Source of the DNA: Ideonella sp. A 288
Lineage (GTDB): Bacteria > Pseudomonadota > Gammaproteobacteria > Burkholderiales > Burkholderiaceae_C
Reading direction: 5' to 3'
DNA length: 63,378 nt
Assembly (NCBI RefSeq): GCF_002198735.1
Contig: NZ_MWLO01000135.1
Span: 19,635-83,012 of the forward strand
The notes beneath the pieces are model-generated. The model was given only the letters and a program-made list of their open reading frames with translations. It was not told where the DNA came from and made no database searches. A program made the position numbers and the translations under genes. The first letter of the stretch is position 1. Each line of letters begins with the position of its first letter. Below are positions 7,574 to 31,593 of this stretch, in pieces.

Positions 7574-7651
7574 GTGCTGCCCTCCCCAGTTCAGCGACCC
7601 GATCTGCGCCGTAGCATAGCCCGACGGGCGGGTGCCCTTGAACTCCCGCAA

Positions 7652-7804: not shown

Positions 7805-7935
7805 TCACGCCCTGAACACCACCGCGCACTTCGGCAGCGTTGTAGGGCGTGGCGACCTGGGCATGGGCCTCGTGCGCGGCAGCGGTCATCGAGCGATTCT
7901 GTACGGACCGGGAGTGGACGAGCGCATCGGTGTTT

Positions 7936-7951
7936 CCCCCCCCAATTGGGG
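7936..7951. promoter_or_regulatory. C8 tract overlapping the palindrome CCCCAATTGGGG
   Basis: A run of eight C (7936-7943) merges into a perfect 12-bp palindrome (7940-7951). It lies about 90 bp before the TTG start of the TIR-SLOG operon, in DNA that is otherwise without symmetry. It could be an operator, or the tract could vary in length. Both roles are inference. Confidence 0.3.
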
Positions 7952-8042
7952 AGGCAGCCTTGGCCCGCAGGCCCCGCGGCTTGCCGGCGGCGCCCGCGGC
8001 GAGCGAAGATCGCAGGCGCCCTGGCCAGCGAGGAGCTCCACC

Positions 8043-10369: not shown

Positions 10370-13300
10370 CGAGCTGGCCGCTGCGGCGCCTGCGGAGGCG
10401 ATTTCGGGTTCGGTTGCACAGACGGCACACGACTTCGACGCCTTCTTGAGTTACTCGACCCGCGGCGACTATTGGGTCAGCCGCCGGGTCGAATCGTTTC
10501 TCGAAGCCTTTCACGCCAGGTTGGCGCCCAGCGGCACCACCTTGCGACCGTTGAGGGTGTGCCGGGACGGCAGCGATTTCCGCCAGGTACTGTCCACGCC
10601 CTTGTCGGCTGACGATGCCATCTGGCAGCGCATCCAACAGTCGTTGCAGCGCTCGCGCCGACTGCTGGTGCTGTGTTCGCCGGAATCGGCGGCCTCGCCC
10701 TGGGTACAGCAGGAACTGGAATGGACCTTGCACCACAAGGGCGCGGCAGCAGTGCTGCTGGCCGTCACTGCGGGCGACGACCCCTCGGGCCATCCGAGCG
10801 GTGTGGTGCCTCCGGCGGCCATCCAGGCTGGCCTGCACCGCAACCATATCTGGTACGACCTGCGCGAATGGCGCGGCGTTCGCGGACCGCTGGTGCGCAA
10901 TGCCGAAGACGAACTGGTTCGTCTGGCGCTCGACTTGCTGGAATGGCCGCACGATGCGCAATCCGATCTGGCAACCATCTGGCAGCGCGAAGACCTTTCG
11001 CGACGCAGGCGCCTGCTGTCTTGGGGACTTGCGGCGGCCAGTGTGTCGGTGGTTGGCGCTGCCGTGGCCGGCTGGCAGTTCCACGAAGCCACGGTCCGTG
11101 CCGAGGAAGCCGCCGCTGCGTCTCTGATCCGCATTGCCGATGCACAAGCCAGCGCGTCGCCGTTGACGGCCGCGTTGGTTTTTGCCGAAGCCGCTGCGCA
11201 GCGCGCGCCGGCCGACGCATTGGATGTGGGCCATCGATTGCTCGACAAGCCCATCGCACGCGCGCGCCTGCGCGGGCACCGGCATCGCCTGGTCACCGGC
11301 CGTTTGACGGCTGATGGCTTCGCCGTCACGGTGGATCAGCGGGGCCACGTGCTGCGGCGCGCCGCCATCGGCATCGGGCCCGATCAGGAACTGGCGTCGG
11401 CCGGGGCCGTGGCGGTTGCCGATGCGGTTGTCAGCGCAGGCGGCACGGTCACGACCCTGGGACTGAAGGATGGCGAGATTCGCCAGTTGCGGGCCGGTGG
11501 CCCTTCACGCGCATGCATGACGCTGGCCGACGATCCACGCTACCTGCACGTCAGCACCGACAGCCGTGCGGCGTTGATCACCGGCTACAAGGCACAGGTT
11601 TATGGGTGCGAATTTGACGATGCCGGCATGCCGGCCGCGCGGGTGCTGCGCACTGACTCCGCCATCGCCGCCGCCTGGTCGGCAGGCGGTGAACCGCATT
11701 CGTGGTTCGGCGTCAGCAACCTCGGCGTCTTCTGGCGCTTTGCGGTGCGCGAAGGCGTCGCCATGCGCATGCCAGACGAACACGTGACCGCGCAATTGCG
11801 TGACGCCGGCATCGTGCACGGCGCTGTCGCGGGCGCGCAGGGCGCCCTCGCGGTGCAGGCTGGCGACGCCTTGTTCGTGGGCGACATGGGCACCGACCGC
11901 GTGCGCCTGGAGCGCCTGCCGGGCAACGCCAAGGTCACCGCCGCGGCGTTCTCGCCCGACGGTGCGCGCCTGGCCGTGGTAACGGCCGATGGAGCGGTCA
12001 CGGTCTACGCGCGGGCGGGCTTGAAGCTTCTGCGTGTGCTGGAACATCGGCTGCTGTTCTATCGGCTGGGCGCAGACCGCAGCAGCGCGCAGAAGTCTCC
12101 CGAATCGTTCGAGGTTGCGCACCTGGCCTGGTCGCCCGACGGGCAGCAACTGGCCACCTTGCAGCCTGGCCGCGGGGTTCAGCTTTGGCAGATGGCCGAC
12201 GGCCGTGCCGAAGAGCCGCACCTGCTCACGGGCCACGACGGTGCGCAGGACATGGTGTGGTCCGACGACAGCCGGTGGCTGGCCACACCCGGTGACGACG
12301 GCGAACTGTTCGTCTGGACCGTCGAGCGTGCCGGCGCAACCGCCACCCGCGTGGCGGCCCGCCTGTATGCCGCCGCCGTCGATCGTCGAACCCGCACGCT
12401 GGCCCTGGGCACCGGGGATGGCCGGGTGCTGGTGTTCCCGCAGGGCCGGCTCGAAGCACAACCGGTCGAATGGAGCGCTGCCGACGAATGTGGCGACGAC
12501 AAGCGGCCGCGGGCCATCGGGCTCTTGCATGTGGAAGCGGAAGGCGGTGCCTTCTGGTCCGCGAGCCAGGGTGGTTTGGTGCGGCGCTGGGACGAACTTG
12601 CCACAAGCGCACAGCCGGCCCCGCTGCGACTTTGCGCCGTGGGCACAGGACACGCCTTCAACCCGAAGCTGAAGGGCATGGTGTTCATCGACGGCCAACA
12701 GCGGCTCAGCTTGGCCGACCGGCAAGGCGTTCGGGTGCTGGATGCAGTGGCACTGCCCAGCCCGACCGAGGCCCTGGCCGTGTCTGAAAGCGGGCGCTGG
12801 ATCGCCGCCGGGTTGACCGACGGCTCGGTGGTCCGCTGGGATCTGGCTGCAGGAGTCGTACAACGCAAGGTCCTGAAGGCGCACACCGATGAGGTCCTGT
12901 GCCTGGCCATCGACGACCAAGAGGGCCGCGTGCTGAGTGGCTCGAAGGACCGCAAGGCCATGTTCAGTTCGGCCTCGTTCGACGCCGCCGGCATGGCGGT
13001 CTGGCAGGGCGACGACGGTTGGATGGAAAGCTGCACGCTGCTGGGCGACCGGGCCTTGGCCGGCTCGTCCACCGGTCGGCTGTGGCGTCTGGACACCGCA
13101 CACCCGGGCAGCAAATCGGCCCTGGCTGGACGCGTCGATACGGCACACATTGGCCCAATCGGTGCCTTGCACCTCGATCGCCAGGGCACGCTACTCGTCA
13201 CAGGAGGCGGAATGGATGGGCGGGTTCGCGTGTGGGACGGCCAAAGCCGCAAGCAACTGGCCGACGTGCCGATGGAAAGCAGCGTGGTGGCCATCGTTCC

Positions 13301-13544
13301 CGATGCCGATCTGCCGTCGGTGACCGTGGTTGCCGAGAGCGGCCTGATCCGTCGTGTGCTGCTCACCGTGCCAGGCGTACAGGCCGCATTGCAGCGCGCC
13401 ACGTCGGCAGCGCTGTCGCCAACCGAACGCGAGGCTCTGCTCAACGAGTCGGCCGACGACGCCTATTCGCGCTACGTCGAGCGCGAGCGTGCCCGGGACC
13501 GCACGCCACTGCCGCGCGATTGGCGCTTTGCCATCCCGTTCTGA
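10353..13544 (+). CDS. membrane-anchored TIR protein with WD40-type beta-propeller
   Basis: The ATG at 10353 lies inside the end of the SLOG gene (17-bp overlap). Residues ~25-160 are a TIR domain (DFDAFLSYSTRGD, and SPWVQQELEW with the conserved Glu). Residues ~223-245 form a transmembrane helix (GLAAASVSVVGAAVAGW) followed by a helical stretch (EEAAAASLIRIADAQ). From ~290 to ~1000 many WD40-like blades appear, with phrases such as AAFSPDGARLAVV, LAWSPDGQQLATL, MVWSDDSRWLA and LHLDRQGTLLVTGG. This TIR-TM-propeller plan is common in large bacterial signalling proteins where the propeller senses or scaffolds. It probably forms an operon with TIR-SLOG upstream and may serve as a membrane output. 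Confidence 0.8.
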   Translation: MNSLPDELAAAAPAEAISGSVAQTAHDFDAFLSYSTRGDYWVSRRVESFLEAFHARLAPSGTTLRPLRVCRDGSDFRQVLSTPLSADDAIWQRIQQSLQRSRRLLVLCSPESAASPWVQQELEWTLHHKGAAAVLLAVTAGDDPSGHPSGVVPPAAIQAGLHRNHIWYDLREWRGVRGPLVRNAEDELVRLALDLLEWPHDAQSDLATIWQREDLSRRRRLLSWGLAAASVSVVGAAVAGWQFHEATVRAEEAAAASLIRIADAQASASPLTAALVFAEAAAQRAPADALDVGHRLLDKPIARARLRGHRHRLVTGRLTADGFAVTVDQRGHVLRRAAIGIGPDQELASAGAVAVADAVVSAGGTVTTLGLKDGEIRQLRAGGPSRACMTLADDPRYLHVSTDSRAALITGYKAQVYGCEFDDAGMPAARVLRTDSAIAAAWSAGGEPHSWFGVSNLGVFWRFAVREGVAMRMPDEHVTAQLRDAGIVHGAVAGAQGALAVQAGDALFVGDMGTDRVRLERLPGNAKVTAAAFSPDGARLAVVTADGAVTVYARAGLKLLRVLEHRLLFYRLGADRSSAQKSPESFEVAHLAWSPDGQQLATLQPGRGVQLWQMADGRAEEPHLLTGHDGAQDMVWSDDSRWLATPGDDGELFVWTVERAGATATRVAARLYAAAVDRRTRTLALGTGDGRVLVFPQGRLEAQPVEWSAADECGDDKRPRAIGLLHVEAEGGAFWSASQGGLVRRWDELATSAQPAPLRLCAVGTGHAFNPKLKGMVFIDGQQRLSLADRQGVRVLDAVALPSPTEALAVSESGRWIAAGLTDGSVVRWDLAAGVVQRKVLKAHTDEVLCLAIDDQEGRVLSGSKDRKAMFSSASFDAAGMAVWQGDDGWMESCTLLGDRALAGSSTGRLWRLDTAHPGSKSALAGRVDTAHIGPIGALHLDRQGTLLVTGGGMDGRVRVWDGQSRKQLADVPMESSVVAIVPDADLPSVTVVAESGLIRRVLLTVPGVQAALQRATSAALSPTEREALLNESADDAYSRYVERERARDRTPLPRDWRFAIPF

Positions 13545-13664
13545 GGCCGGCCATGCCCATGGTGCCTCGCGGTTTGCGGTGCGCTGCATGGCATCATGCC
13601 GTCAAACAAGGGTGACCACGGCAGGGCGAACGGGACGTCGCCACATGGCACCCCATGGAGGACC

Positions 13665-16600
13665 ATGACCCGCCCGCGCCTGCGCATCTTTCTGGCATCG
13701 CCCAGCGCCGACACATTGGTGGCGCGCATGCATGCAGCCGCGGCCGTTCGCGAGGTCAACGCCGATCTGCGGGATGCGGAACTGGTGCTCTATCGGTGGG
13801 ATGACCCCGACCCGGCCCGTCGTGCGGTGATGTCCGCCACCCACAGTGGCCAGATCGACGTTGTCGAGCAGATTGCGCACCCCAAGGACTGCGATCTCGT
13901 GATCGGCCTCTTCGGCCACACCATGGGCAGCACATTGGACGACCAGACGACCTTCGGCCAGTCGCCTGCGATGCGACCCTGGCACTGCACCGAATGGGAA
14001 GTCTCCCAAGGCCTGCTGGGGCATGCGGCCGGCACCGTGAAGGACATCTGGGTCTGGCGCCACGCGCAGCACCTGCCCATCGACCCCAGGATGACCAAGG
14101 CGCAGCAGGCCCTGATCTCCAATGACAGCCTGCGCGTGACCGAGTTCATCGAGTCGCTGAAAGGCCGCCCAAACTACTTCACCGACCCAGCCGATCTGGC
14201 TCTGCAACTGCGGCCGTTGCTGCGGAACTGGGTTCGCCGCCAGTTGGACACCGTAGGTCCAACCGGCACGTCCGCCATCGCCACGACGACGGAGCAATTG
14301 ACGCCGACCCAGCAGGCCTTGCTGGCCGCCTTGCTGCAATCACCCACCGGAGGCACCACACCATCGCCCCTCACCGACGAGCAACTCCAGCCCCTGCTCA
14401 CCGAGCCCGTCCGAGGCCTGCGCGGCCATCTGCTGCGCCGTCATGCCCAGTGGGCCACGCGCGAAGGCGGGCGGCTGGACCGGCGCTTCGTCAACCTGAC
14501 CCTGTTGCTCGACAAGGGGCTCGAGTTCGACGGCCCGCGCTTCGGGCCCGATACCGGCAAGGGCGACCAGGGCCGTTACGACGACCTGGCCAGGCTGCTA
14601 GACGAGAACCCCGATGTCGCGGCCTGGGTGTTGGTGGGCGACCCGGGGTCGGGCAAATCGACCCTGTTGCAGCACCACGAACTGACGACGGCGCTGGCGG
14701 CCCTGGCGGCGCTGCAGCCCGGTGACCAAACCGATGCCCAAGCGGCGCGTGCGCCCGAAGTCTGCTTCTGGCAGCGCCTGTCGGAATACAGCAGTGCCAG
14801 CCCGCCGCCCGCGCAATGGCTGGCCGAACGCTGGGCCGCCCAGCACCCGGCCTTGCCGCCGCTGGACCAGATGCACAAGACCGTGCGCCTGCGCTGCCTG
14901 CTGGATGGCCTGAACGAGATCAGGGCCCCAGACCGCGACGCGCAGGTGCGCGCCGTCGATGCCTGGACCGACTGGGCCGCGCAGCAGGCCGCCGGCGCGC
15001 GGCTGGCGCCCCTGTTCAGCGTCCGCACGCTCGACCAGAGCCCGATGGCCAGCAGCGGGTTCGAGGTGCGGCAGATCACCGTGTCGCCGTGGACCCGAGA
15101 CCAGATGCAGTCCTACTGCCAGCAGGTGCTGGGCGAAGGCAATGGGCTGTGGCCGGCGATCGCGGGCGACCCGCATCAGCTCAGCCTGTGCAGCCTGCCT
15201 TTCAACCTGGCCAGCCAGTGCGAACTGTTCCGCCACCTGCAACGCCCGGCGCACGACCGCGCCGAACTGCTCAGCGGCCTGTTCTGGCTGCGCCTGCGCA
15301 ATGAGCGCGCCAAGGGCACGCTGACGGCGCCGGGCCTGCTTACCGTCGACGATTTCGGCCGCCTGGCCGGCGACCATTGGCGCAAGGCGCCGCTGGCCCT
15401 GCCGGAGCGCGGCTGCCTGGTGCCCTGGCTGGACGCCATCGCCCAGCAGATGCACCGCAGCGGCCGCGCCGTCAGCCTGGCCCGGCCGCTTTTGCTGGGA
15501 CGCGTGCAGACCTTGCACGACACAGCCGTCGCCGCCGGCCGACCGGCGGTCGGGCCTGCCGTCTGGCTGGCTGCTGTGCACGCGCTGAACCTGATCGGCG
15601 AAGGCGATGTCGACGCCCACAGCGGCGAGCCCGACCTGCGTTTCACGCACCAACTGTGGCAGGAGTACTTTGCCGGCCGCGGCCTGCGCGGCCTGCCGCA
15701 GCGGCCGGCCGCTGAATGGCCACCGCTGCAGGCCCCTGCGCTGCCCGACCTGGGCGAGACCGTGGCGAAGCTGGGTGTGCAGCAGCCCTTGCCCGGCCCC
15801 GATCCCACGCATTGGGAAGAGGCGGTGAAGCTGGCATTGCAGTTCGAACGCGACCCGCTGCCCTGGATCGGACTGCTGCAGGGCCTGAATCTGCCGTTGG
15901 CCGGGCGCGCCGCGGCTACGGTGTTGCCGGCCCTGCAAGCTTCACCGGCCGGTGTGCAGGCACTGGCGCCACTGCGCAGCGCGCTGCTCGCCCGCAGCCG
16001 CGACCCGGCCACCGACCTGCGCCTGCGCATCGAAGCCGCGGAAGCCCTGGGGCCGTTTGGAGACCCGCGCTACGTGACGATGTACGGGCCGCAGGGCGAC
16101 CGCTGCCTCATCCCTGGGCGAGCGCACTGGGTGCGATTTGCGGCGGGGACTTTTGCCATCGGCAGCGACTCGCCAGAGGAACCGGATGAGGGGCCCGCGG
16201 CGGACATCGAAGTGGCCCCATTCGAGATGGCCTTTGCGCCGGTGACGAACGCCGAGTACGCCTGCTTCGTCGAGGCTGGAGGCTACGCGAACGAGCACTG
16301 GTGGGTGGGTGAGGTGGCTCAGAAATGGCGGCGTGGCGAACTGCGCGACGAGGCGTCGATCGAGCAATACGCCCAGGTCTTCGCGGACCTGCGAACCGAC
16401 TTTGGCGGCACTGTCGCGCGGTTTCCAAACCTCACCGAATCCGCCATCGATGCCTTTCGGACCTATGCGTCCTGGAGCGAACAGGAAGGCCTGGATCAAC
16501 TGGATCGGTGGTATGGCGCGAAGCATTGCACCGAACCGCAGGAATGGCACAACCCCAACTTCAGCCAACCGCTCCAGCCGGTGGTCGGCATTTGCGTCTA

Positions 16601-17063
16601 CGAAGCCGAGGCCTATCTGCGCTGGCTGGCCGCGCAAACCGGATTGCCTGTGCGTCTGCCAACCGAAGCCCAATGGGCGCGGGCCGCCGCGGGCGCCACG
16701 GGCCGAGGCTGGCCCTGGCCCGGCGATGCCGACCCTGACCGCTGGCAGATCAACGCCGACCCTGTGCATCTGCGCAGGACGAGTCCGGTCGGCGTGTTTC
16801 CGGGTGGCGACTCGGACGAGGGCCTCGTCGATTTGGCCGGCAATGTCTGGGAATGGACATCCAGCGCCTTCACCGACAGCATAGACGCCGATGCCGTATC
16901 TGAAGCTGCCAGCGATGAGGGTGCGCGGCGGGCGGTGCGTGGCGGCTCGTGGAGCGTCCATTCCACGTTCTGCCGCGCGTCTTTTCGCAGCTGGAGCACC
17001 CCTGGCGGCCGCAACAACAACCTGGGTTTCCGTGTCGTGTGCTGCCCCATTCATGAACCCTGA
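13665..17063 (+). CDS. DGR target 1: DUF4062-like / NACHT-type NTPase / FGE-type lectin receptor
   Basis: This 1132-residue STAND-like protein starts at 13665 (GGAGG just upstream). Residues ~4-190 resemble the DUF4062 N-terminal domain of NTPases (LRIFLASPS, LVIGLFGHTMGS, CTEWEVSQGL). The P-loop GDPGSGKS is at 325-332 and the Walker B-like LLDGLNEI near 412. A helical middle (FTHQLWQEYFAGRGL) follows, then from ~820 an FGE-type C-type-lectin domain (FEMAFAPVTNAEY, RLPTEAQWARAA, GNVWEW, RGGSW, LGFRVVC). Residues 1087-1127 are encoded by variable repeat VR1. The active-site cysteine pair of true FGE is missing, so the domain should bind rather than oxidise. It converges on the reverse transcriptase gene. 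Role inferred: diversified ligand sensor that drives the NTPase switch. Confidence 0.88.
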   Translation: MTRPRLRIFLASPSADTLVARMHAAAAVREVNADLRDAELVLYRWDDPDPARRAVMSATHSGQIDVVEQIAHPKDCDLVIGLFGHTMGSTLDDQTTFGQSPAMRPWHCTEWEVSQGLLGHAAGTVKDIWVWRHAQHLPIDPRMTKAQQALISNDSLRVTEFIESLKGRPNYFTDPADLALQLRPLLRNWVRRQLDTVGPTGTSAIATTTEQLTPTQQALLAALLQSPTGGTTPSPLTDEQLQPLLTEPVRGLRGHLLRRHAQWATREGGRLDRRFVNLTLLLDKGLEFDGPRFGPDTGKGDQGRYDDLARLLDENPDVAAWVLVGDPGSGKSTLLQHHELTTALAALAALQPGDQTDAQAARAPEVCFWQRLSEYSSASPPPAQWLAERWAAQHPALPPLDQMHKTVRLRCLLDGLNEIRAPDRDAQVRAVDAWTDWAAQQAAGARLAPLFSVRTLDQSPMASSGFEVRQITVSPWTRDQMQSYCQQVLGEGNGLWPAIAGDPHQLSLCSLPFNLASQCELFRHLQRPAHDRAELLSGLFWLRLRNERAKGTLTAPGLLTVDDFGRLAGDHWRKAPLALPERGCLVPWLDAIAQQMHRSGRAVSLARPLLLGRVQTLHDTAVAAGRPAVGPAVWLAAVHALNLIGEGDVDAHSGEPDLRFTHQLWQEYFAGRGLRGLPQRPAAEWPPLQAPALPDLGETVAKLGVQQPLPGPDPTHWEEAVKLALQFERDPLPWIGLLQGLNLPLAGRAAATVLPALQASPAGVQALAPLRSALLARSRDPATDLRLRIEAAEALGPFGDPRYVTMYGPQGDRCLIPGRAHWVRFAAGTFAIGSDSPEEPDEGPAADIEVAPFEMAFAPVTNAEYACFVEAGGYANEHWWVGEVAQKWRRGELRDEASIEQYAQVFADLRTDFGGTVARFPNLTESAIDAFRTYASWSEQEGLDQLDRWYGAKHCTEPQEWHNPNFSQPLQPVVGICVYEAEAYLRWLAAQTGLPVRLPTEAQWARAAAGATGRGWPWPGDADPDRWQINADPVHLRRTSPVGVFPGGDSDEGLVDLAGNVWEWTSSAFTDSIDADAVSEAASDEGARRAVRGGSWSVHSTFCRASFRSWSTPGGRNNNLGFRVVCCPIHEP
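16923..17046 (+). repeat. DGR variable repeat VR1
   Basis: These 124 bp at the 3' end of receptor 1 align without gaps to the TR at 18777-18900. Thirty bases at the start and 25 at the end are identical. In the 69-bp centre, 11 positions differ, and every one is an adenine in the TR (A to G six times, A to T five times). Examples in TR>VR1 order: AAC>AGC, AAC>GTC, AAC>TTC, TAT>TTT, AGG>TGG, AAC>GGC. The AAC triplet before CTGGGT is unchanged. No TR cytosine, guanine or thymine differs. This is the hallmark of adenine-specific mutagenic homing. Confidence 0.96.
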
Positions 17064-17136
17064 TCCCTGGGTATTGGCTGTTGGCTATTGCCTTGACCGA
17101 GCGCGCACGGCGCACCGCCGATTTCTTCCGCATCGC

Positions 17137-18186
17137 TCACTTCCCCAGCCAGCACCCGTCCAATGCCAGCCCGCCCAGCACATGGCGCCGCAGGCCCCAG
17201 GTGTCGGCCTGGCCGACATGATTGATCCAACCCTGCACCGTGGCATCGAATTCGCCGAAGCTGATGTCGCCGCGCTGCCATGCCGCGTGGCTGGCGCGCA
17301 GGCGGCGCGTCGCGGCCACCACCTTGCGCGACTTCACGCGCTGATGATCGGGGTAGACCACAAATCCAAGCCAAGGGATGCCCGCCGCACAGGCCTGCAC
17401 CTGCGCCGTGTTGTCGTGCACGCGCAGGCGCAGCCGCCGGGCCAGAAAATCCTGCACTGCGACGCCCCATTCGCGCAGCACGACCTTGTCGTCGTGGAAC
17501 AGCGCAAAGTCATCGACATAGCGCAGGTACGGCCCGCAACGCAGCGTGCGCTTGACGAACTGATCCAGCGGGTCGAGAAAGCAGTTGGACCAGAACTGCG
17601 AAGTCAGGTTGCCAATGGGCAGGCCGCGCGGCCGGCACTGCGCCAGCAGATCGTCGCCATCGAAGAACGCGGCGGGCACTTGCTCGGCATGGATGCCATC
17701 GCCACTGGCCACGATGTGCCGGATGAGATCGCGGATGCCGGGTTCGGGGATACGGCGCCAAAGCAGATCCTTCAGGATGGCATGGTCGATGCTCGGGAAG
17801 TGCTGGCGCACGTCCAGCCGCAGCACATAACGGTGCAGGCGCGCGAATTGTTGCAGCCGGTCGACGGCACGGTGCGTGCCCTTGCCAACGCGGTTGGCAT
17901 AGCTGTCGCCGATGAAACTGCGTTCGAAGCGCGGCTCGATCACGCCGCACAGCGCATGATGCACCACGCGGTCGGCAAAGGGCGCGGCGCTGATCCAGCG
18001 GCGTTTGGGCTCGTGGATGCTGAAGTGCACATACGCCCCCGGCCGCCAGGCTTGCGCCAGCAGTTGGCTCCGCAGGGCCAGCAGGTTTTCGCCCAGCCTG
18101 TAGCCAAAGCTCGCCACCGCCGCTGCGGCCTGCTTGCCGCGCGAGGCCAGAACCCAGGAGCGCAACAGATTGTCCCCATCCGCCAC
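17137..18186 (-). CDS. DGR-type reverse transcriptase
   Basis: The protein (349 aa from the GTG at 18186; a GTG at 18237 is an alternative) carries DGR-RT signatures: GENLLALRSQLL and WRPGAYVHFSIHEPKRR near the start, APFADRVVHHAL, FIGDSYANRVGKGTHRAV, LRLDVRQHFPSIDH (RT motif with the first Asp), the diagnostic PIGNLTSQFW near residue 190, the catalytic YVDD at 223-226 and a C-terminal GWINHVGQADTW. The LTSQ motif separates DGR RTs from group II intron and retron RTs. It makes cDNA from the TR RNA with errors at adenines and delivers it to the VRs. The TR lies upstream on the same strand. The frame upstream of the start is Ser/Arg/Trp-rich and antisense to the Avd-like gene, so it is not counted. 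Confidence 0.93.
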   Translation of the reverse strand: MADGDNLLRSWVLASRGKQAAAAVASFGYRLGENLLALRSQLLAQAWRPGAYVHFSIHEPKRRWISAAPFADRVVHHALCGVIEPRFERSFIGDSYANRVGKGTHRAVDRLQQFARLHRYVLRLDVRQHFPSIDHAILKDLLWRRIPEPGIRDLIRHIVASGDGIHAEQVPAAFFDGDDLLAQCRPRGLPIGNLTSQFWSNCFLDPLDQFVKRTLRCGPYLRYVDDFALFHDDKVVLREWGVAVQDFLARRLRLRVHDNTAQVQACAAGIPWLGFVVYPDHQRVKSRKVVAATRRLRASHAAWQRGDISFGEFDATVQGWINHVGQADTWGLRRHVLGGLALDGCWLGK

Positions 18187-18238
18187 CGCCAGCAGTCCGC
18201 CCGTGCCGCCCGACGCAGGCGATTCAGTCGCCGCCACG

Positions 18239-18595
18239 ATGGTGGTCCACACCCGGGCGCGCGAACTGCTGGAATGGCTGCTGCCGCATACCGGCAAGTT
18301 CCCGCGGGAACAGCGCCACCTGATGGCGAGGCACATTGCCAGCCTGGCCCTGGGCGTGCACGACGCGCTGATCGCGGCGCGCCATCTGGCACCGGGCCCG
18401 CGCGCCACGGCGCTGCTGGATGCCGACATCCAGCTCGACCAATTGCGCCAGCACCTGCACCTGGCCTGGCGCTGGCAGTGGCTGAGCGGAGGCCAGTTCC
18501 AGCATGTCAGCGGCCTGACCGATGAACTCGGGCGCCTGATCGGCGGCTGGAGGCGCGCCAAGCCCGCGCCACATGCACCGCCTGCGCGCCCTTAG
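18239..18595 (+). CDS. avd: Avd-like DGR accessory protein (four-helix bundle)
   Basis: This 118-residue, helix-rich, basic protein reads ELLEWLLPHTGKFPREQRH, ALGVHDALIAARH, DIQLDQLRQHLHLAW and GLTDELGRLIGGWRR, the pattern of the Avd/23S-intervening-sequence four-helix family. Avd forms a basic pentameric barrel that binds the RT and TR RNA and is needed for cDNA synthesis. The ATG at 18239 gives the usual length; no strong ribosome site is seen. Its strand is opposite to the RT and TR, and only 52 bp separate the two divergent starts. In most DGRs these genes run the same way, so this orientation is unusual. Confidence 0.85.
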   Translation: MVVHTRARELLEWLLPHTGKFPREQRHLMARHIASLALGVHDALIAARHLAPGPRATALLDADIQLDQLRQHLHLAWRWQWLSGGQFQHVSGLTDELGRLIGGWRRAKPAPHAPPARP

Positions 18596-18776
18596 GTGGG
18601 CCGCGCCGGAGCACGGGGCTCGAAGCGCGGCCCGGTTCGATAGGCGCCTGGGACAGAGCGCCCAGACGGGACCCACCCGCGCCATTCCAAAGGGCAGAAG
18701 CTCGGCGGGCCGACCGTGATCAGCCCGCATCACCGCCATGGCCGGCCGCACTGGCCGGCCCTGCCCCTGGGGATGT
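18596..18776. other. spacer between avd and TR
   Basis: No gene is seen in these 181 bases. On the TR strand this is the RNA immediately 3' of the template, where DGR cDNA priming is known to depend on structured spacer RNA. It includes a strong inverted repeat (18740-18760). Confidence 0.6.
18740..18760 (-). other. 8-bp stem hairpin just 3' of the TR
   Basis: GGCCGGCC at 18740-18747 and again at 18753-18760 flank the five-base loop GCACT. Because GGCCGGCC is its own complement, the RNA folds to a perfect 8-bp GC stem. It begins 17 bases after the end of TR/VR identity on the TR strand. There is no T-run, so it is not an ordinary terminator. A role in TR RNA folding or cDNA priming is inference. 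Confidence 0.55.
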
Positions 18777-18900
18777 GGCAGCACACGACACGGAAACCCA
18801 GGTTGTTGTTGCGGTTGCCAGGGGTGTTCCTGTTGCGATAAGACGCGCGGCAGTTCGTGGAATGGTTGTTCCACGAGCCGCCACGCACCGCCCGCCGCGC
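18777..18900 (-). repeat. DGR template repeat (TR)
   Basis: This 124-bp minus-strand segment is the adenine-rich master copy of both VRs. Between two invariant flanks it has 23 codons, nine of them AAC, holding 23 adenines; the flanks hold none. Read in frame it gives [36 protein letters not shown], the same protein motif as the receptors' ends, but it is not part of a supported gene. Downstream of the identity block (position 18776 on) it diverges from both VRs, as expected for an IMH* versus IMH difference. It lies upstream of the RT on the same strand. Confidence 0.96.
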
Positions 18901-18959
18901 ACCTGTCGGGGGACCCCACAGCCGAAGCTGCGGGCCGAGTATCGGTGCGATGGCCCATC

Positions 18960-18979
18960 GCCGAATGACAAATTTCGGC
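18960..18979 (-). other. inverted repeat between VR2 and TR
   Basis: GCCGAA and TTCGGC form a 6-bp stem with an eight-base loop, about 70 bases beyond the end of VR2. A small inverted repeat (CGGCG-CAC-CGCCG, 17108-17120) lies at about the same distance beyond VR1. In the Bordetella phage DGR a hairpin downstream of the VR assists target recognition. Similar use here is inference. Confidence 0.35.
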
Positions 18980-19032
18980 GGCGCGCTGCGCGCGCTCGGC
19001 CAAGGCAACGACCAACAGCCAATGCCCAGGGA

Positions 19033-22000
19033 TCAGGGTTCTTGAATGGGGCAGCACACGACACGGAAACCCAGGATGAGGTTGCGGTCGCCAGGGGTGA
19101 GCCTGTCGCGATAAGACGCGCGGCAGATCGTGGAAAGGTAGCGCCACGAGCCGCCACGCACCGCCCGCCGCGCATCACCGTCAACCACATCGCTCGTCAG
19201 CGCCTGGGCATCCAGGCGGTCGGTGTAGAGGCTGATGGTCCATTCCCAAACATTGCCGGGCATGTCGGTCAGGCCCGGCGTCGTGTCGGCGTTGGGGAAC
19301 ACGCCGACAGGACTGGTGCGGCGCAGATGCGCGGGGTCGGCATTCAATTGCAGCGCAGTGGGATCATGCATTCCCCAGGGCCAGCGGCGCCCGCCGTGGC
19401 CGCGCGCGGCGGCGTCCCATTCGGCCTCGGTCGGAAGGCGCAGCGGCTTGCCGGTCTGCACCGTCAGCCAGTGGGCATAGGCACGGGCTTCGAACAGGCT
19501 GATCCCCACCACGGGTTGCAGCGGCTGATTGAACCGGGCGTCGTCCCAATGGGCCGGTTGGGTTGCTGCATTGGCACCGAACGACGACTCCAGCCGGGCC
19601 TCGGCTTCGGCTTCAGTCCAGCCTGCGTAGGTTCGAAGTTGTTCGTCCACGTAGGCTTGCGTTTCGCCGGAAAAATACGCTTGAATGGCGGCATCAAAGT
19701 CTTGTCGCAGCGCAGCCAATCGGGGCCGCCAGTACTCGATCTCGGCATCGTTGCGCAGGCCCTTCTCGAGCCACTGCCGGGCCAGGCCAGGGTCCCACCA
19801 CTGCGCATCTTCATAGCCCTTGGCGTCGATGAAGCAGGCGAACTCGGCATTGGTGACGGGCGCAAAGGCCATCTCGAAGGCGGCCACGGGCACCGCCGTG
19901 GCGGGGCCTTCATCGAGACGCTCGGGCGTATCGCTGCCGACGACGTGCCTGCCCGCAGGCACCTTGATCCATTGCTCGGCAATGGGCCACAAGAAGCGGG
20001 CACCCCCGGGACCGATGCCCTCGCGATAACGCGGGTCGCCCAGCAGGCCCAGGGCCTCGGCCGCCTCGATGCGCCGACGAAGATCGGTGGCCGGGTCGCG
20101 GCTGCGATCGAGCAGGGCCTGGCGCAAGGCCTGAAGCGCTTGGTTGCCGGTGGCCGAGCCCTGCAGCTTCGCCTTGACGGCCAGCGCCGAGCGGCCGGCC
20201 AGGGGCAGGTTGATCGCTTGCAGGCGGGTCAGCCAGGCCGCCGGGTCGTCGCTTAGCTGTACGGCCAGCTTGATGGCTTCTTCCCACCCGCACACATCCG
20301 GGCCGGGCAGCGGGTCCTTGGCGGCCAGGCGGGCCAGCGCCTGATTCATATCTTCCAGCGCTGGCGGGCTCAGGTCGGGCCAGGCGCCGGTTGGGTCGGC
20401 CGGCAGGTTGCGAACGGCGCGCGCGGCAAAGTACTCCTGCCACAACTGGTGGGTGTAGCGAAAGCGGCCATTGAGCTCGACCTCGGTGAGGTTCAAGGCC
20501 GCGGTGGCCTTCAGCCAGGCGCTGCGCTCGGCCGGCGTGCCAATCCAGGGCGCCACGGCCTGAGCGGGCACGCCCACTTCGGTGCCCTGGCCGCTGCGGT
20601 GCATGGCCTCGGCCTGGCGCGCCAGACCGGCGAGCAGGCTGCCTTCTTCGGGCAGGTCGGTCAGGTGGCTGCGCCAGTGGTCGGCGTCGATCAGCTGTCG
20701 GCGGTCGCGCGGGCTGAGCAGGCCATCGCCATCCAGTTCGTCGCGCTCGAAGGCGCGGCGCAGGCGCAGCCAGGCCAGCCCGCCGAACAGTTCGGCCCGG
20801 TCTTGCGCCGGCCGGCCCAGGGCCAGTGTCAGGTCGCACTGGGCCGCCAGGTTGAAGGGCAGGGCGCACAGGTCTTTCAACCTGGCGTCCTCGTCGAGAC
20901 GCTGCCACAGCGCGTTGGCGGGGCCCAGGCGCAGCACGCAGTACTGCCGCATCTGGCTCGGTTGCCAATGGGCCAGGCGGGCCTGTTCCACCTGCAGCGT
21001 GGCGCTGCTGAGCGGCTCGCTGAATTCGAGCGTGCGCACGCTGAACAGCGGTGGCGCGTGATGGCCCGCTGCCTGTGTCAAGCCGGCGGCCCAGCCCGCC
21101 CAGCGCCGCACCGCCTTGCGGTAGGCGGCGGCATCCGGGGCCTGGATCTCGTTCACGCCGTCCAGCAGGTAGCGCAGGCGAAGGTTGCGGGCCAGTGTCT
21201 TCAACGGCGCCAGTGCCGGATAGAGCAGTTGCCACTGCGCATCCAGCCAGGCCTGAGGGTCGGGCGTGTCGTGGGGGCAGTCGGCCAGGCGTTGCCACAC
21301 GCACAGCTCGGGCAGGGGATCGCCCGCATCCAGCGCACGCAGCAGGGCGCGCTGGGTCTGCAGTTCGTGGTGCTGCAGCAGGGTGGACTTGCCGCCGCCC
21401 GGGTCGCCCACCAGCACCCAGGCGCCCGCCTGGGGCCGTGCCGCAAACAGCGCCTGCAGGCTGGGGTAGCGATTGCGCGTGGCCCAGGTTTCGCCGGCCG
21501 CGCCTTCGGGGCGATAGGCCAACAGGTCGAGGTTGACGAAACGCGTGTCCAGTTCGCCATGGCCGGGGCGGCACCAGGCCGCGAAGCGGCGCAGGGCGTA
21601 GCTGCGCAGGTCTTGCACGTCGGCCTGCCAGGCCGACTCGATCAACTCGTCGTCCAGGGGCTGATCGTGGTCGAGCAGGATGTCGGACAGGCGCTGCTGG
21701 GCGCTGTTCAAGGGTACGTGGCCGGCGGAGGCCGGTGGGGGCGGTGCAGCAGCCGGCGGCACCGGCGCTGCCGTCAGCGCGTCGCGCCTTTGGCATTCAT
21801 GTGTCAGCCATTTGTTCAGCCTGCGGGTGAATCCCGCCTCGAAGTCGCTCAGGCCATGGTGCTCGTTGATGCCGCGAAGGATCTCGTGCGTGCCCGGCTT
21901 CTTGCAGGCGTCGAAGAACGCCTTGACTCGCGCGTACTGCGCATAGGCCTGATCGTCTTCGTCGATGCTGGCGTCGGGATGGATCTGGAAGATGTCGAGG

Positions 22001-22404
22001 TCCCGAAACACCAGGATCTCGCGCACCTCGCCTCGCTTCGCTGCCTCCACGGCGCGGTGCAGTTCCCATTCGGTGCCGGTCCACGCGTCGCCATTGGGCG
22101 AGTGACCGAAGTCGTCGATCGGCAGAGGTGAACCGAAGGTGTGGCGGAACAGCGCGATCACCAGGTCGCAATGGCCCGGGTCGCCGGTGCTGGCAACCAC
22201 GTCGTGCTGCGGGTTGCGCAGAAAGGAGCATGGCACCGGATGCTGGGGGTCGTCCCAACGCAGCAGGTCGATCTGCACCCGCTCGCTGAGCAGCGGGTTG
22301 TCGTTGATGCCGTCAACCACCCTGGCCACCACCTCGCGCGCGGCGGCCGTGTCCTTTGGCGAGGCCAGAAAGATGCGGACGCGGTGGAGGGCTGCCATCG
22401 GCAT
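19033..22404 (-). CDS. DGR target 2: DUF4062-like / NACHT-type NTPase / FGE-type lectin receptor
   Basis: This 1123-residue paralogue of target 1 runs on the opposite strand. Residues ~8-200 form the DUF4062-like domain (VRIFLASPKDT, LVIALFRHTFGS, GTEWELHRAV). The P-loop GDPGGGKST is near residue 332, with LLDGVNEI as Walker B-like motif, then FTHQLWQEYF-like helical sequence (RYTHQLWQEYFAARAV). From ~810 comes the FGE-type lectin domain (FEMAFAPVTNAEF, RLPTEAEWDAAARG, GNVWEW, RGGSW, LGFRVVC). Residues 1078-1118 are variable repeat VR2. The cysteine pair needed for FGE catalysis is absent. A 158-aa gene ends 32 bp upstream and is probably co-transcribed. The VR end faces the TR and RT. Confidence 0.88.
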   Translation of the reverse strand: MPMAALHRVRIFLASPKDTAAAREVVARVVDGINDNPLLSERVQIDLLRWDDPQHPVPCSFLRNPQHDVVASTGDPGHCDLVIALFRHTFGSPLPIDDFGHSPNGDAWTGTEWELHRAVEAAKRGEVREILVFRDLDIFQIHPDASIDEDDQAYAQYARVKAFFDACKKPGTHEILRGINEHHGLSDFEAGFTRRLNKWLTHECQRRDALTAAPVPPAAAPPPPASAGHVPLNSAQQRLSDILLDHDQPLDDELIESAWQADVQDLRSYALRRFAAWCRPGHGELDTRFVNLDLLAYRPEGAAGETWATRNRYPSLQALFAARPQAGAWVLVGDPGGGKSTLLQHHELQTQRALLRALDAGDPLPELCVWQRLADCPHDTPDPQAWLDAQWQLLYPALAPLKTLARNLRLRYLLDGVNEIQAPDAAAYRKAVRRWAGWAAGLTQAAGHHAPPLFSVRTLEFSEPLSSATLQVEQARLAHWQPSQMRQYCVLRLGPANALWQRLDEDARLKDLCALPFNLAAQCDLTLALGRPAQDRAELFGGLAWLRLRRAFERDELDGDGLLSPRDRRQLIDADHWRSHLTDLPEEGSLLAGLARQAEAMHRSGQGTEVGVPAQAVAPWIGTPAERSAWLKATAALNLTEVELNGRFRYTHQLWQEYFAARAVRNLPADPTGAWPDLSPPALEDMNQALARLAAKDPLPGPDVCGWEEAIKLAVQLSDDPAAWLTRLQAINLPLAGRSALAVKAKLQGSATGNQALQALRQALLDRSRDPATDLRRRIEAAEALGLLGDPRYREGIGPGGARFLWPIAEQWIKVPAGRHVVGSDTPERLDEGPATAVPVAAFEMAFAPVTNAEFACFIDAKGYEDAQWWDPGLARQWLEKGLRNDAEIEYWRPRLAALRQDFDAAIQAYFSGETQAYVDEQLRTYAGWTEAEAEARLESSFGANAATQPAHWDDARFNQPLQPVVGISLFEARAYAHWLTVQTGKPLRLPTEAEWDAAARGHGGRRWPWGMHDPTALQLNADPAHLRRTSPVGVFPNADTTPGLTDMPGNVWEWTISLYTDRLDAQALTSDVVDGDARRAVRGGSWRYLSTICRASYRDRLTPGDRNLILGFRVVCCPIQEP
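19050..19173 (-). repeat. DGR variable repeat VR2
   Basis: These 124 bp align without gaps to the TR. The 30-bp and 25-bp flanks are identical; in the centre 12 positions differ, all at TR adenines: AAC>CGC, AAC>TAC, CAT>CTT, AAC>ATC, AAC>GAC (twice), AAC>CTC (twice) and AAC>ATC. Changes go to C, G and T. The TAT and AGG codons changed in VR1 are unchanged here, while the AAC triplet kept in VR1 is partly changed (AAC-CTC-ATC). The two VRs therefore carry independent mutation histories from one template. Confidence 0.96.
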
Positions 22405-22913: not shown

Positions 22914-23080
22914 CGTCACCCGCCATGGTTTGACTGTGCAGACCAGTATATCGGCCGGCACCTGGTGGGCACCGTGACTCGCAGGCCACGCGGCTGCCAC
23001 AGATGTCCCGCGTTGGATGCCAGGGTGGCGATCACAGGACAGGCTTTGACTTCGAGCACCGCAGATCGCAAACTTGCCCG

Positions 23081-24271
23081 ATGGACCCCATGCGCCTGTA
23101 TGTCGTCTTCGATCCTGGCTTCGAACCCGCGGGGTCGGCCTGGGTGAGTTGGCTGGCCGATGCCCTCAGCGGCCTGGGCATGCAGCGCGACGGGTGTCGG
23201 TTCGGGGTTCCGGTGCAATGGCGCTCGCAGCCCTGGGGTGCTGAGCAACCCGGCCTGCCAGGCGTGCAGCACCCCAGGCGAATCGCACTGGACGACGCGG
23301 CCAGCAACTGCGTGCTGCTGCTGATGGACGACAGCATGGGGGCTGTTCAACCAACCCGGTGGGTGGCCTACGTTGAAGAATTGCGCGCGCGCATGGCCCA
23401 CCGCGCGGGGCGGGATCTGCTGGTGACGGTGATGTTGACGGCCCAGAAGCCGCTTTTCCCAGGGTTGCCGCACACCATGCGGGGCGCAGTACCCGACCTG
23501 CCATCGCAACCGCAGGCCGCCGTGCGGTTTCTCGTGCAGTTGCTCAATGCATTGCTGGTGCACCGCCAGCCTGAATCGGTGGTGGGCGCGCACCGGCCCG
23601 GCCATGGCATCTTCGTGTCGCACGCCAAGCGCGACGGCTGGCGCACTGCAGAGCGCATCGTGCAGGTGCTGTCGCGCGTGGGGCAGGGCGCCCGGCCGGC
23701 CTTCTTTCTGGACACCGACAGCCTGGTGCCCGGCAGCGACTTCGAATCCCGATTCGAAGCCGCCATCGGGGCCGGCAGCCTGCTGGCCCTGGCCACCGAT
23801 GCGTACCACACGCGGCCCTGGTGCCGCTGGGAACTGCTCACCGCCAAACGGCTGGGGCGGCCCATCGTGGTGGCCGACCTCAGTTCCGGCCGCATCGAGC
23901 GCACCCTGCCGTACCTGGGCAATGTGCCGTCGCAACGGGTGCCGGTGGCGGTCGGCGATGACGACGATGACCTGTCTGAACCCGTGATCGAACAACTCGC
24001 GCTGGCGCTGCTGTCCGAGGCCCTGCGCTTCGACCTGTGGCTCCAGCATGCTCGAGAACGCATGGCCGGCCGCCATTGCCGCTTGATGGCGCGACCGCCC
24101 GAATTGACCGACCTGGCCGAAGCCGCCGCGCAGGCGAACGGCAACCCGCAGACCTTGCCGTGGATGGTGTACCCCGACCCTCCGCTGGGACGGGAAGAGG
24201 TTGACCTGCTCGGCCGCGCCTTTCCACAGCAGGGCGTGTTCAGCCTCAGCCAGGCGTTGGCACGGTCATGA
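23081..24271 (+). CDS. TIR-domain protein with N-terminal TIR-like domain (paralogue)
   Basis: The start is ATG at 23081 or 23090 (MDPMRLYVVFD). Residues ~4-110 form a Rossmann/TIR-like domain (RLYVVFDPGFE, NCVLLLMDDSM), and residues ~175-310 a TIR domain with GIFVSHAKRD, FFLDTDSLVPGS and TRPWCRWELL, which includes the conserved Glu. The plan matches the protein at 8043 and the gene is again followed by a SLOG gene with an ATGA overlap. An acidic patch (GDDDDDLSE) lies near residue 290. Likely an NAD+-processing or signal-making enzyme. Confidence 0.8.
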   Translation: MDPMRLYVVFDPGFEPAGSAWVSWLADALSGLGMQRDGCRFGVPVQWRSQPWGAEQPGLPGVQHPRRIALDDAASNCVLLLMDDSMGAVQPTRWVAYVEELRARMAHRAGRDLLVTVMLTAQKPLFPGLPHTMRGAVPDLPSQPQAAVRFLVQLLNALLVHRQPESVVGAHRPGHGIFVSHAKRDGWRTAERIVQVLSRVGQGARPAFFLDTDSLVPGSDFESRFEAAIGAGSLLALATDAYHTRPWCRWELLTAKRLGRPIVVADLSSGRIERTLPYLGNVPSQRVPVAVGDDDDDLSEPVIEQLALALLSEALRFDLWLQHARERMAGRHCRLMARPPELTDLAEAAAQANGNPQTLPWMVYPDPPLGREEVDLLGRAFPQQGVFSLSQALARS

Positions 24272-25227
24272 GCAACGCCCCGCAGTCCCCCGCCGTGGGC
24301 AGCCGCCTGGCCGGCCGCTTGCTGGCCGTGTCTGTGTCGCCGGCCGACGATCTGCCTCGGCTGGGGCATCCGCCCGGTCAACTCAACCAGGCCTTGCAGG
24401 CGCTGCTGGTGCCGCTGGTGTCCGAAGGCGCGCGCATCGCCTACGGCGGGCGAGTCCATGCCCGAGTCCACAATTACACGCTGTTCATTTCGAACCAGCT
24501 TGCCGAAGCCTATCGACGCCTGGACCAGGCCCCGGGCAGTCGGCCCTTCGTTCACTTCCTGGCCTTGCACGTGTTCCAGAACACCCCAGCAGCCGAACTG
24601 TTTGCTCACCTGCAGCGGTTGGCGCCCTATGGCGAAATCTGGGTGACAGGCGATGCCGGCGTGCTGGCCACCCTGGCCGCGGTGTCGCCCGAGTCCGACC
24701 AGGTGGCGGCCTGCAGCGGCTGCGGGCTGGACGCCGCCACCGATCTGCAGTCGGGCCACGGCCTGGCCGGACTGCAATCGCTGGCCTCGGTTCAGGCACT
24801 CAGGAGCATGCCGGTGCCGCATCCCAGCGCCAGCTACAGCATCATGCGCCAGCAAATGGCCGAGCGATGCCATGCCCGGGTGCAATTGGGTGGCCGCAAG
24901 TCGGACTTTCGCGGCAGCATCTCGGGCCTGTGCGAAGAGGCCTTGCTCACCATCGCTGCGGGCCGCCCGCTTTACGTGCTGGGCGGCTTTGGCGGTGCCA
25001 GTCGCGACATTGCCGCTGAGTTGGGTTTGATCGACCAGGATGCCTGCGTGCCCCGTGTTTCCCAGCCCGGCGAAACCCGATATGCTGACGGCCTGCAACG
25101 CTTGCGCGATGTGCGCCCCGCCTTCGAGGCGCTGTTTGCGCCCCGGCAGATGCCGGCCCTGCGCGAACTGGCCCGCACCGAAAGCCTGTCAGATGCGCCC
25201 GAGTTGCTGATGACCTTGCTGACCTGA
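24268..25227 (+). CDS. SLOG-domain nucleotide-binding protein (paralogue)
   Basis: This 319-residue protein shares the SLOG plan of the 9314 gene: SEGARIAYGGRVH near residue 55 and then LGGRKSDFRGS, SGLCEEALLTI and YVLGGFGGAS near 204-250. The start overlaps the TIR stop by ATGA. A patatin phospholipase gene follows after 15 bp on the same strand, so the likely operon is TIR-SLOG-patatin. One reading is that the TIR makes a signal, SLOG binds it and the lipase is released; this is inference from known TIR/SLOG biology. Confidence 0.75.
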   Translation: MSNAPQSPAVGSRLAGRLLAVSVSPADDLPRLGHPPGQLNQALQALLVPLVSEGARIAYGGRVHARVHNYTLFISNQLAEAYRRLDQAPGSRPFVHFLALHVFQNTPAAELFAHLQRLAPYGEIWVTGDAGVLATLAAVSPESDQVAACSGCGLDAATDLQSGHGLAGLQSLASVQALRSMPVPHPSASYSIMRQQMAERCHARVQLGGRKSDFRGSISGLCEEALLTIAAGRPLYVLGGFGGASRDIAAELGLIDQDACVPRVSQPGETRYADGLQRLRDVRPAFEALFAPRQMPALRELARTESLSDAPELLMTLLT

Positions 25228-25242
25228 CGAAAGGATGCCTCG

Positions 25243-26217
25243 ATGTTCCGCATTCTCAGCATCGATGGTGGTGGCATCAAAGGAGCCTTCGCAGCGTCCG
25301 CGCTGGCCACCCTGGAAAAGGACCTGGACTGTCGCGTGGCCGATCACTTCGACCTGATCACCGGCACCTCCACCGGCGGCATCATCGCGCTCGGCCTGGG
25401 GCTGGGCCTATCGGCACAGGAGATCCTGCAGTTCTACATCGACAAGGGCCCTGCCATCTTCCCCGGCACCAGCCTTGTGCAACGCCTCAGTGGCAAGGTA
25501 AAGCAGTTCATTCTCGGTCCCAAACATTCCCACCAGGTGCTGCGCGATGCGCTGGAGCAGGTGTTCCAGCAGCGCCGCTTTGGCGAATCCAGTTGCCGCC
25601 TCGTCATTCCCACCTACAACGCCATCGGCGGGTGCATCTTCATCATGAAGACGGCCCACCACGAGCGCTTTCGCTACGACATCGACGCGCCGGCCGTGGA
25701 CGTGGCGCTGGCCACCTCGGCAGCGCCCACCTATTTTGCCGCCGCGCGCTTTCCGCAGCACGACTACGCCAGCTACGTGGACGGCGGCGTGTGGGCCAAC
25801 TGCCCGGTGCTGGTGGGCGTGACTGAAGCGCTGGCCTTTCTCGGCCAGAAGTTGGACGACCTCGACGTGCTCAGCATCGGCGCCACCACGGCACCGTTCT
25901 CCATTGCCGAGCATGCCGACTCCAGCGCGATGGACTGGAACGTGGGCCTGGTGGACCTGATGTTCGAAGCGCAGGTGCAGACCACGTTGGCGCAGGCCGG
26001 CCTGATGCTGCCCGGCCGACTGCATCGGCTGAATGCCGTGGTGAAGGACGGCACTTTCTCGCTGGACGATTCCCGCCCCGAACGCATCAAGCAACTGGTG
26101 GTGCTGGGCCGCAACGAAGCGGTGAAGAAGCAGAACCTCGAGCCCATCCGGCAGCGCTTTCTCAATGGGCAGAAGGCGGCACCGTTCGTGCCGGTGGTGG
26201 CGCTGAAGGCTGTGTGA
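25243..26217 (+). CDS. patatin-like phospholipase
   Basis: This 324-residue protein has all patatin landmarks: oxyanion DGGGIKG (8-14), the nucleophile elbow GTSTGG with Ser43, and the catalytic Asp in DGG at 180. Patatins hydrolyse membrane phospholipids; members such as CapV act as suicidal effectors in CBASS defence. No membrane helix or signal peptide is present, so it is likely cytosolic until activated. It is the last gene of the TIR-SLOG-patatin operon, with an AAGGATG-type ribosome site. Confidence 0.88.
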   Translation: MFRILSIDGGGIKGAFAASALATLEKDLDCRVADHFDLITGTSTGGIIALGLGLGLSAQEILQFYIDKGPAIFPGTSLVQRLSGKVKQFILGPKHSHQVLRDALEQVFQQRRFGESSCRLVIPTYNAIGGCIFIMKTAHHERFRYDIDAPAVDVALATSAAPTYFAAARFPQHDYASYVDGGVWANCPVLVGVTEALAFLGQKLDDLDVLSIGATTAPFSIAEHADSSAMDWNVGLVDLMFEAQVQTTLAQAGLMLPGRLHRLNAVVKDGTFSLDDSRPERIKQLVVLGRNEAVKKQNLEPIRQRFLNGQKAAPFVPVVALKAV

Positions 26218-26566
26218 CATGGGCGCCGGCGCCGTCGCCGTCGCGGCCAGCCAGTCGGCGCCCTTGCCGGTCATCAGTCATGCCCACGCCCACAGCCCGC
26301 CGCGCGTCGCCCGGCGCGGCGCCTGCGTACCCACGGGCTGGACGGGTGGATGAACGAAGAGCGCCTGAGCAAGGGCGTGCAACTGGCACCCAGCATCGCC
26401 AGCCACCTGGCCGAAGCCGACGCCCTGGTGGTGATGGCCAGTGCGGCTGCGGCGCGGTCTGGCTGGGTGCGCCGGACAACCGCGTCGAGGTGGTGTTGCG
26501 GTTGGGTTGAGCGGACAACTTCTGCATCCACTAGTCCTGGCCGGTGCAATAGGTAGACTCGTCACA
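26218..26566. other. intergenic stretch, 349 bp, with TIR remnant
   Basis: No complete gene is present. The middle holds a TIR fragment (26326-26499). The last ~65 bp before the next ATG are less GC-rich (tgcatccactagtcc, aataggtagactcgtcac) and could carry the promoter of the large TIR-NTPase-Nudix gene. Confidence 0.5.
26326..26499 (+). pseudogene. TIR-domain fragment
   Basis: The plus strand reads GLDGWMNEERLSKGVQLAPS, then IASHLAEADALVVMASAAAA and RSGWVRR. The second part has the form of the TIR helix and strand before the catalytic motif (SAD-LVV-SPAAA-S-WV). The expected Glu position after WVRR is lost: the frame runs into TTASR and then non-coding sequence. There is no ribosome site. 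It looks like a remnant of a TIR gene disrupted when the neighbouring large gene arrived. Confidence 0.5.
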
Positions 26567-31425: not shown

Positions 31426-31532
31426 GTCGATCTCCTTCGAGATGCACCCATTCGTCCGGAGCAGACCGATAGGGCAGGGGATCAGGTGGGGAAAAAGTGG
31501 GAAAAACCTTGGTGGAATTCTAGAGACGATTC

Positions 31533-31572: not shown

Positions 31573-31593
31573 ACTTTGCACCGCTTACCGTCA

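Follow-up and report, generated by a model that had tools for sequence, protein, structure and literature searches.

A diversity-generating retroelement with two opposed, NLR-like target genes in Ideonella sp. A 288

Diversity-generating retroelements (DGRs) of clade 5D, found in multicellular bacteria, diversify STAND sensors that have been proposed to be antigen sensors, and no STAND receptor with a C-type-lectin (CLec) domain had yet been experimentally characterised as of that study (Dore et al. 2024, PMC10907252). Here we describe a DGR in a 63,378-nucleotide stretch of the Ideonella sp. A 288 genome (contig NZ_MWLO01000135.1, positions 19,635 to 83,012; hereafter the window, numbered from its first letter). 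Like the clade 5D elements in the text available of PMC10907252, it has two targets with a central STAND/NACHT NTPase and a single C-terminal C-type-lectin domain that carries the variable repeat (VR); in that text the lectin is named FGE in one case and some N-termini are TIR or peptidase domains. Unlike them, the window targets have a DUF4062-like N-terminus, a name with 0 occurrences there. Judged by architecture rather than by placement in the published reverse transcriptase (RT) tree, the window locus is covered in kind by Dore et al. 2024.

With the DGR of Bordetella phage BPP-1 the locus shares an RT, an Avd protein, a template repeat (TR), VRs, adenine mutagenesis, a structured spacer 3' of the TR and an end difference like that between the IMH* and IMH (initiation of mutagenic homing) sites, as far as the consulted parts of PMC3240598 and PMC12875486 describe that element. 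BPP-1 is organised as an avd-TR-brt operon, whereas the window has an inverted Avd gene and two opposed NLR-like targets. The target N-termini may also have the TIR-like fold of DUF4062 NADases, such as bacterial Swarozyc and human TEP1, in the portions available of a 2026 preprint (PMC13174449), and a DUF4062-like domain would stand beside NACHT here as in TEP1, NWD1, NWD2 and NPHP3. Unlike those NADases, the window proteins have a DGR-diversified FGE domain as sensor, and their sequence match to DUF4062 is below cut-off. Among the papers listed by our literature search none joins a DGR term with DUF4062, and the main text, as available, of a 2023 study of DGRs in prokaryotic immunity does not mention NACHT, STAND, FGE, TIR or MoxR (PMC10053308). 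DGRs that rewrite the tips of immune receptors are a bacterial parallel to somatic hypermutation, and the window locus offers a compact test case, with one TR, two opposed targets and N-termini resembling a newly reported TIR-like NADase family. We put the probability that the window holds a complete DGR, its reading frames all open, that acts on a pair of NLR-like genes at about 0.82.

Adenine-specific differences between one template and two variable repeats

The element comprises the following features:

18773..18903, minus strand: TR, from repeat alignment
16920..17050, plus strand: VR1, with 0 non-adenine differences from the TR across 131 bp
19046..19174, minus strand: VR2, with all differences from the TR at adenines across 129 bp
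17137..18186, minus strand: DGR reverse transcriptase of about 349 amino acids, with a GTG start proposed by eye; from PHROG 1423, RVT_1 and the RT tree
18239..18595, plus strand: Avd-like protein; bAvd E=2.8e-14, PHROG 'Avd protein of DGR' E=1.2e-18
13596..17063, plus strand: target gene 1, 1155 amino acids; from FGE, NACHT-like and DUF4062/TIR-like profiles, folds and motifs
19033..22404, minus strand: target gene 2, 1123 amino acids, 48% identical to target 1, with FGE at residues 810-1116
18596..18772, minus strand: putative spacer RNA region 3' of the TR, with conserved hairpins at 18663-18734; from covariation, a covariance model and folding
17047, plus strand (VR2 equivalent 19049): VR end-mark base C where the TR has A, as in 15 of 15 VRs at nine loci

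An earlier note on this DNA had reported a TR, a DGR-type RT with LTSQ and YVDD, an Avd-like protein and two VRs with 11 and 12 differences from the TR over 124 bp, all at TR adenines; every component was confirmed, and the counts proved exact on realignment. The three segments (TR 18777-18900, minus; VR1 16923-17046, plus; VR2 19050-19173, minus) align without gaps, and all 23 differences, 11 in VR1 and 12 in VR2, fall at adenines, of which the TR segment has 23; its 101 C, G and T positions are unchanged in both VRs. The hypergeometric chance of an adenine-only pattern is 8.0e-10 for VR1 and 8.5e-11 for VR2. Adenines were replaced by G (six) and T (five) in VR1 and by T (six), C (three) and G (three) in VR2. 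Homology extends beyond this segment, to 131 bp for VR1 and 129 bp for VR2, and over the 129 bp of VR2 all 13 differences are at TR adenines, counting the end mark described below. In the target reading frame, 14 TR codons bear adenines; nine of these are AAC and none can mutate to a stop, and the coding choices multiply to about 3e13 possible proteins per VR.

Used as a DNA query against its own assembly at E up to 0.01, the TR found three sites, namely itself, VR1 and VR2, and no further TR-matching target in the genome. Two other FGE genes (window 5077-5514, minus strand, and one on contig C119) match the target 1 protein without matching the TR, and were set aside. These results show that the locus is a DGR with past homing in both target genes. 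The earlier proposal of mutagenic homing in two genes is thereby supported as a record of the past; the element is probably still active.

The RT carries IGNLTSQ (17616-17596) and YVDD (17520-17509) on the minus strand; an SQ motif is the rule for RTs of the DGR kind. It matches PHROG 1423 at E=5.8e-96 as well as Pfam RVT_1. Its best match in the PDB is 8ub7 (E=5.4e-38), which we take to be the BPP-1 enzyme; group II intron enzymes come next, at no better than 1.8e-16. In a midpoint-rooted tree of 30 RT rows, the split between two group II rows and the remaining 28 has 100/100 support, as does an 11-row group that contains the window RT; the earlier note had held that a non-DGR RT in a phylogeny would speak against it, and the RT instead stands apart from the group II rows. 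Many of the 28 rows, though not all, have a TR/VR pair in the same stretch. The host genome has one RT above the Pfam cut-off and one weak match that carries a stop, and the window RT is 32% identical to an RT copy in phage BMP-1. An RT pattern-based scan of the genomes of 84,980 species gave 13 loci (loci are numbered with the prefix L below), with relatives from Betaproteobacteria, Competibacteraceae, Accumulibacter, Chloroflexi and others. In viral contigs, scanned with a restricted pattern, no relative was confirmed.

Architecture and predicted role of the target proteins

The two target genes converge, each with its VR within the 3' end of the FGE (C-type lectin) domain, an end that is poorly modelled. 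Target 1 has an N-terminal TEWE motif (second E at E135), a Walker A motif (GDPGSGKST from residue 348) and an FGE-sulfatase domain at 844-1148 with VR1 at its end; target 2 has TEWE (second E at E114) and GDPGGGKST from residue 333. FGE is significant in both (E=1.4e-51 in target 1), and both have a Walker A motif. Pfam NACHT reaches target 1 at E=5.3e-4, below cut-off, and is unlisted in target 2 even at E 10; a fold search with target 1 was topped by NLRC4, NLRP3 and NOD2. Judged by these profiles and folds, the targets resemble immune proteins of the NLR type, and their predicted function follows from that architecture.

Similarity of the N-termini to DUF4062 is below cut-off in the window targets (E 0.078 in target 1 and 0.039 in target 2). 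With an E limit of 1, DUF4062 matches all five aligned N-termini, the best at 1.2e-20, and the T and E of the TEWE motif are invariant in all five rows. The T-E-x-E of TEWE can be set against the TEMEV of TEP1, in a weak and non-significant alignment (E 0.92; TEP1 motif from the available part of PMC13174449). An N-terminal model aligned with structures of the nucleoside deoxyribosyltransferase family and of TIR domains; the list contained no TEP1 chain and gives no evidence either way on that likeness. We propose that the predicted DUF4062/TIR-like N-terminus may hydrolyse NAD. PADLOC left target 1 unlabelled and made target 2 a weak candidate PDC-S60 (6.3e-6).

Nine targets of related loci have a comparable layout: FGE was found in all nine, NACHT in eight (one below cut-off) and nSTAND1 in one. 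At an E cut-off of 0.001 their N-termini are DUF4062 (L020, E 1.8e-19), TIR (the direct target of L024, and L019) or trypsin (both targets of L017), and no N-terminal domain was listed at that cut-off for the other four. Because FGE is constant while the N-terminal domains vary, the sensor tip appears to stay as the effector is exchanged.

In the mechanism that we favour, a complex of RT and Avd would reverse-transcribe TR RNA, placing random bases opposite its adenines as in the known DGR mechanism, and the resulting cDNA would replace the matching 3' ends of the two convergent target genes. The TIR/DUF4062-like domain would act as effector, the NACHT-like ATPase as switch and the FGE/C-type-lectin domain as a sensor with a rewritten tip. 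Cells would carry shuffled sensors for phage or competitor molecules, and ligand binding would lead through NACHT assembly to NAD loss or cell arrest.

We regard a defence role of the diversified targets as probable. The same NACHT-FGE chassis might instead serve another kind of recognition, of kin, a surface ligand or a signal, and the available text of Dore et al. 2024 (PMC10907252) calls the immune role of STAND-associated CLec domains still to be tested. We think this somewhat unlikely, as the TIR, DUF4062 and trypsin N-termini of the relatives, together with the TIR, SLOG and patatin genes next to the window locus, fit conflict systems best.

Related loci and the history of homing

Across 15 TR-VR pairs at 11 scored loci (the window's two pairs included, L014 and L024 treated as separate), TR adenines account for 256 of 264 mismatches, and for 242 of 250 once the end mark is set aside. 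This figure is favoured by the choice of interval ends, because the extension rule penalised non-adenine mismatches. With fixed intervals, 14 pairs have 0 to 5 non-adenine mismatches each and L014 has 17, where a single-base gap shifts the register; this recount did not recover the L021 pair, whose VR lies near a contig end, and added the second L018 VR. No TR-VR pair was found in L012/L043, L013/L044, L016, L025 or L026. At L016 (7340-8000), an open reading frame between a TR-like repeat and the RT resembles, by eye, a DUF559-type endonuclease.

L014 and L024 are one locus in two metagenome-assembled genomes (MAGs; GL140_5 and GL140_3, respectively), with an RT 67% identical to that of the window. 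Between them, TR, spacer, Avd and RT with the short gaps between differ at 1 of 1832 columns, and the shared target differs at 20 of 127 columns in the VR and at 8 of 3227 in the rest of the gene. The VR differences consist of 18 substitutions and one gap at TR adenines and one substitution at a TR thymine. The L014 target loses its reading frame at the gap, which is either a real change or an assembly error. The two MAGs are not identical elsewhere: past the target they differ at 114 of 4120 columns. This pair shows recent VR turnover, and provides the strain comparison that the earlier note had proposed, with 19 of 20 VR differences at TR adenines, in a relative and not in this species.

That the window element is a true DGR now inactive, its VR differences being relics of past homing, seems to us improbable. 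In its favour, the RT of a same-genus ortholog (L043) contains a stop, and the hairpin or cruciform 3' of the VRs, a DGR feature, is weak in the window; in 10 of 13 other VRs at most 12 of 200 shuffles formed one as good, the VRs above that level being the direct VR of L024, VR a of L017 and that of L023. By contrast, the window RT, Avd and both target genes are open and the motifs sought are intact, and a long idle period should have added some non-adenine differences to the 124-bp TR/VR comparison, which has zero.

Duplication of an FGE tail followed by gene conversion, with selection making the differences, has a negligible chance of being right: the targets are indeed paralogs that share about 70 bp past the VR, with differences there at other bases, but we reject ordinary duplication because of the base specificity of the VR differences, with 23 of 23 at adenines of one separate copy and the same preference in the 15 pairs, and the VR is hypervariable between near-identical loci.

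Avd orientation, spacer RNA, end mark and neighbouring genes

Three details of the locus, the inverted Avd, a covarying spacer RNA and a fixed end mark, deserve recording. The window Avd gene lies between TR and RT, antisense to both. Within the window's RT group Avd is inverted in this way in all 10 loci with a detected Avd (the window, L024 with L014, L043, L015, L017, L018, L019, L020, L022 and L023, the last counted here although its cut RT is absent from the tree); in L016, also of this group, Avd was not detected. Outside the group it is on the RT strand in all 12 loci with a detected Avd and inverted in none (L021, sister of the window group, L030-L035, L041, L045-L047 and L050). A single inversion event would explain this pattern. 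A search of PDB sequences with the window Avd gave no match at E up to 0.01. In the titles and abstract openings that we searched, we recognised no published description of an inverted Avd.

The spacer 3' of the TR is predicted to form a structured RNA. The fold of 18596-18780 beats shuffled sequences (z=-2.80; 2 of 200 as good), and a 10-bp hairpin compared across eight loci shows changes on both sides at 7 of its 10 pairs. For a two-helix structure, drawn from the same sequences used to test it, none of 500 shuffles equalled the real alignment in covariation score or in percentage paired, 8 did so in the count of two-sided pairs and 13 in pair types; when the helix partners were shifted, pairing fell from 87.5% to 53.6% or less. 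Two-sided changes are absent from the short second helix. In a search space of 312,297 bases from 30 sources, the covariance model recovered the eight loci on which it was trained and L014 (the L024 locus), and it also found L043, a same-genus relative kept out of the training, at 1.9e-16; next came L021 at E 0.018, directly after its TR, and everything else from 0.086 upwards. Neither L016 nor L020, which has an inverted Avd, gave a convincing match, L020 being no better than background, and an Rfam scan of 16500-19600 found nothing up to E 1. The BPP-1 spacer folds, recruits bRT-Avd and primes cDNA synthesis, according to the parts of PMC12875486 that we drew on, and by analogy we infer the same role for the window spacer. 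Since the L024 spacer terminates in a hairpin with a T-rich run, the TR may be transcribed as an RNA of its own, apart from the RT message; for the window, whose spacer has no following T run, this step is weak.

Just outside the 124-bp segment, and so excluded from the earlier count, both VRs share one extra A-to-C difference from the TR (TR 18776; VR1 17047; VR2 19049). C occupies this position in all 15 VRs where the TR has A, with L014 and L024 taken as one locus (their TRs are identical), L016 not among the 15 and L021 not covered. The context is CCA in the TR and CCC in the VR, mostly CCAC(AT) and CCCC(AT). L016 departs from the A/C pattern, its TR-like repeat having C. Because unbiased mutagenesis of an adenine would give C in about one third of changes, we read this base as a fixed mark at the VR 3' end. 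Its placement is like that of the IMH*/IMH difference of BPP-1, which suggests a corresponding role. Together, the spacer RNA and the A/C end mark may serve as tools for finding and orienting such elements.

By TR match, two VRs face each other across the RT in four loci (the window, L024, L015 and L018). In E. coli, targets co-directional with replication showed 7.6- and 24.6-fold more BPP-1 editing (PMC12875486, as consulted in part), and by that rule opposed targets would differ in rate. This raises the possibility, which we hold to be doubtful, that the inverted Avd makes the TR its own structured non-coding RNA gene for paired TIR/DUF4062-NACHT receptors, with one VR co-directional with replication and hence a fast and a slow repertoire. 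Not counting the end mark, the changed adenines of each opposed VR pair number 11 and 12 of 24 in the window, 17 and 13 of 28 in L024, 17 and 19 of 27 in L015 and 12 and 15 of 23 in L018; these counts, which are accumulated changes and not rates, have no consistent orientation bias across the four loci. An older BPP-1 paper gives replication polarity no significant role in cDNA priming (PMC3240598, in the portion consulted). Both points weigh against fast and slow receptors, and neither is a measure of rate at this locus. GC skew in the window is apparently too weak to call the direction of replication.

Among the neighbouring genes, four on the same strand (23003-30064, plus) encode TIR, SLOG cluster2, patatin phospholipase and TIR-NACHT-HEAT proteins, and the patatin gene matches the PADLOC model 'Effector, Phospholipase' at E=1.8e-95. 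This cluster looks like a signalling defence operon, with the phospholipase presumably of a kind linked to CBASS. At 7632-13544 (plus) a second TIR and SLOG cluster2 pair precedes a TIR-WD40 protein; between the TIR proteins of 7632-9317 and 23003-24271, identity is 28% across 150 columns. At 5014-6999 (minus) a ParA-like ATPase-FGE fusion, a PADLOC candidate PDC-M28B, has an FGE 39% identical to the target FGE across the matched part and gives no match to the TR. ARAGORN found no tRNA genes in the window. A phage-type integrase (30247-31581, minus) stands beside the defence genes and suggests a mobile island. On the Acaryochloris marina plasmid pREC1, typed as conjugative, a related RT (L050) with the usual Avd orientation has genes of the formylglycine-enzyme family on both sides.

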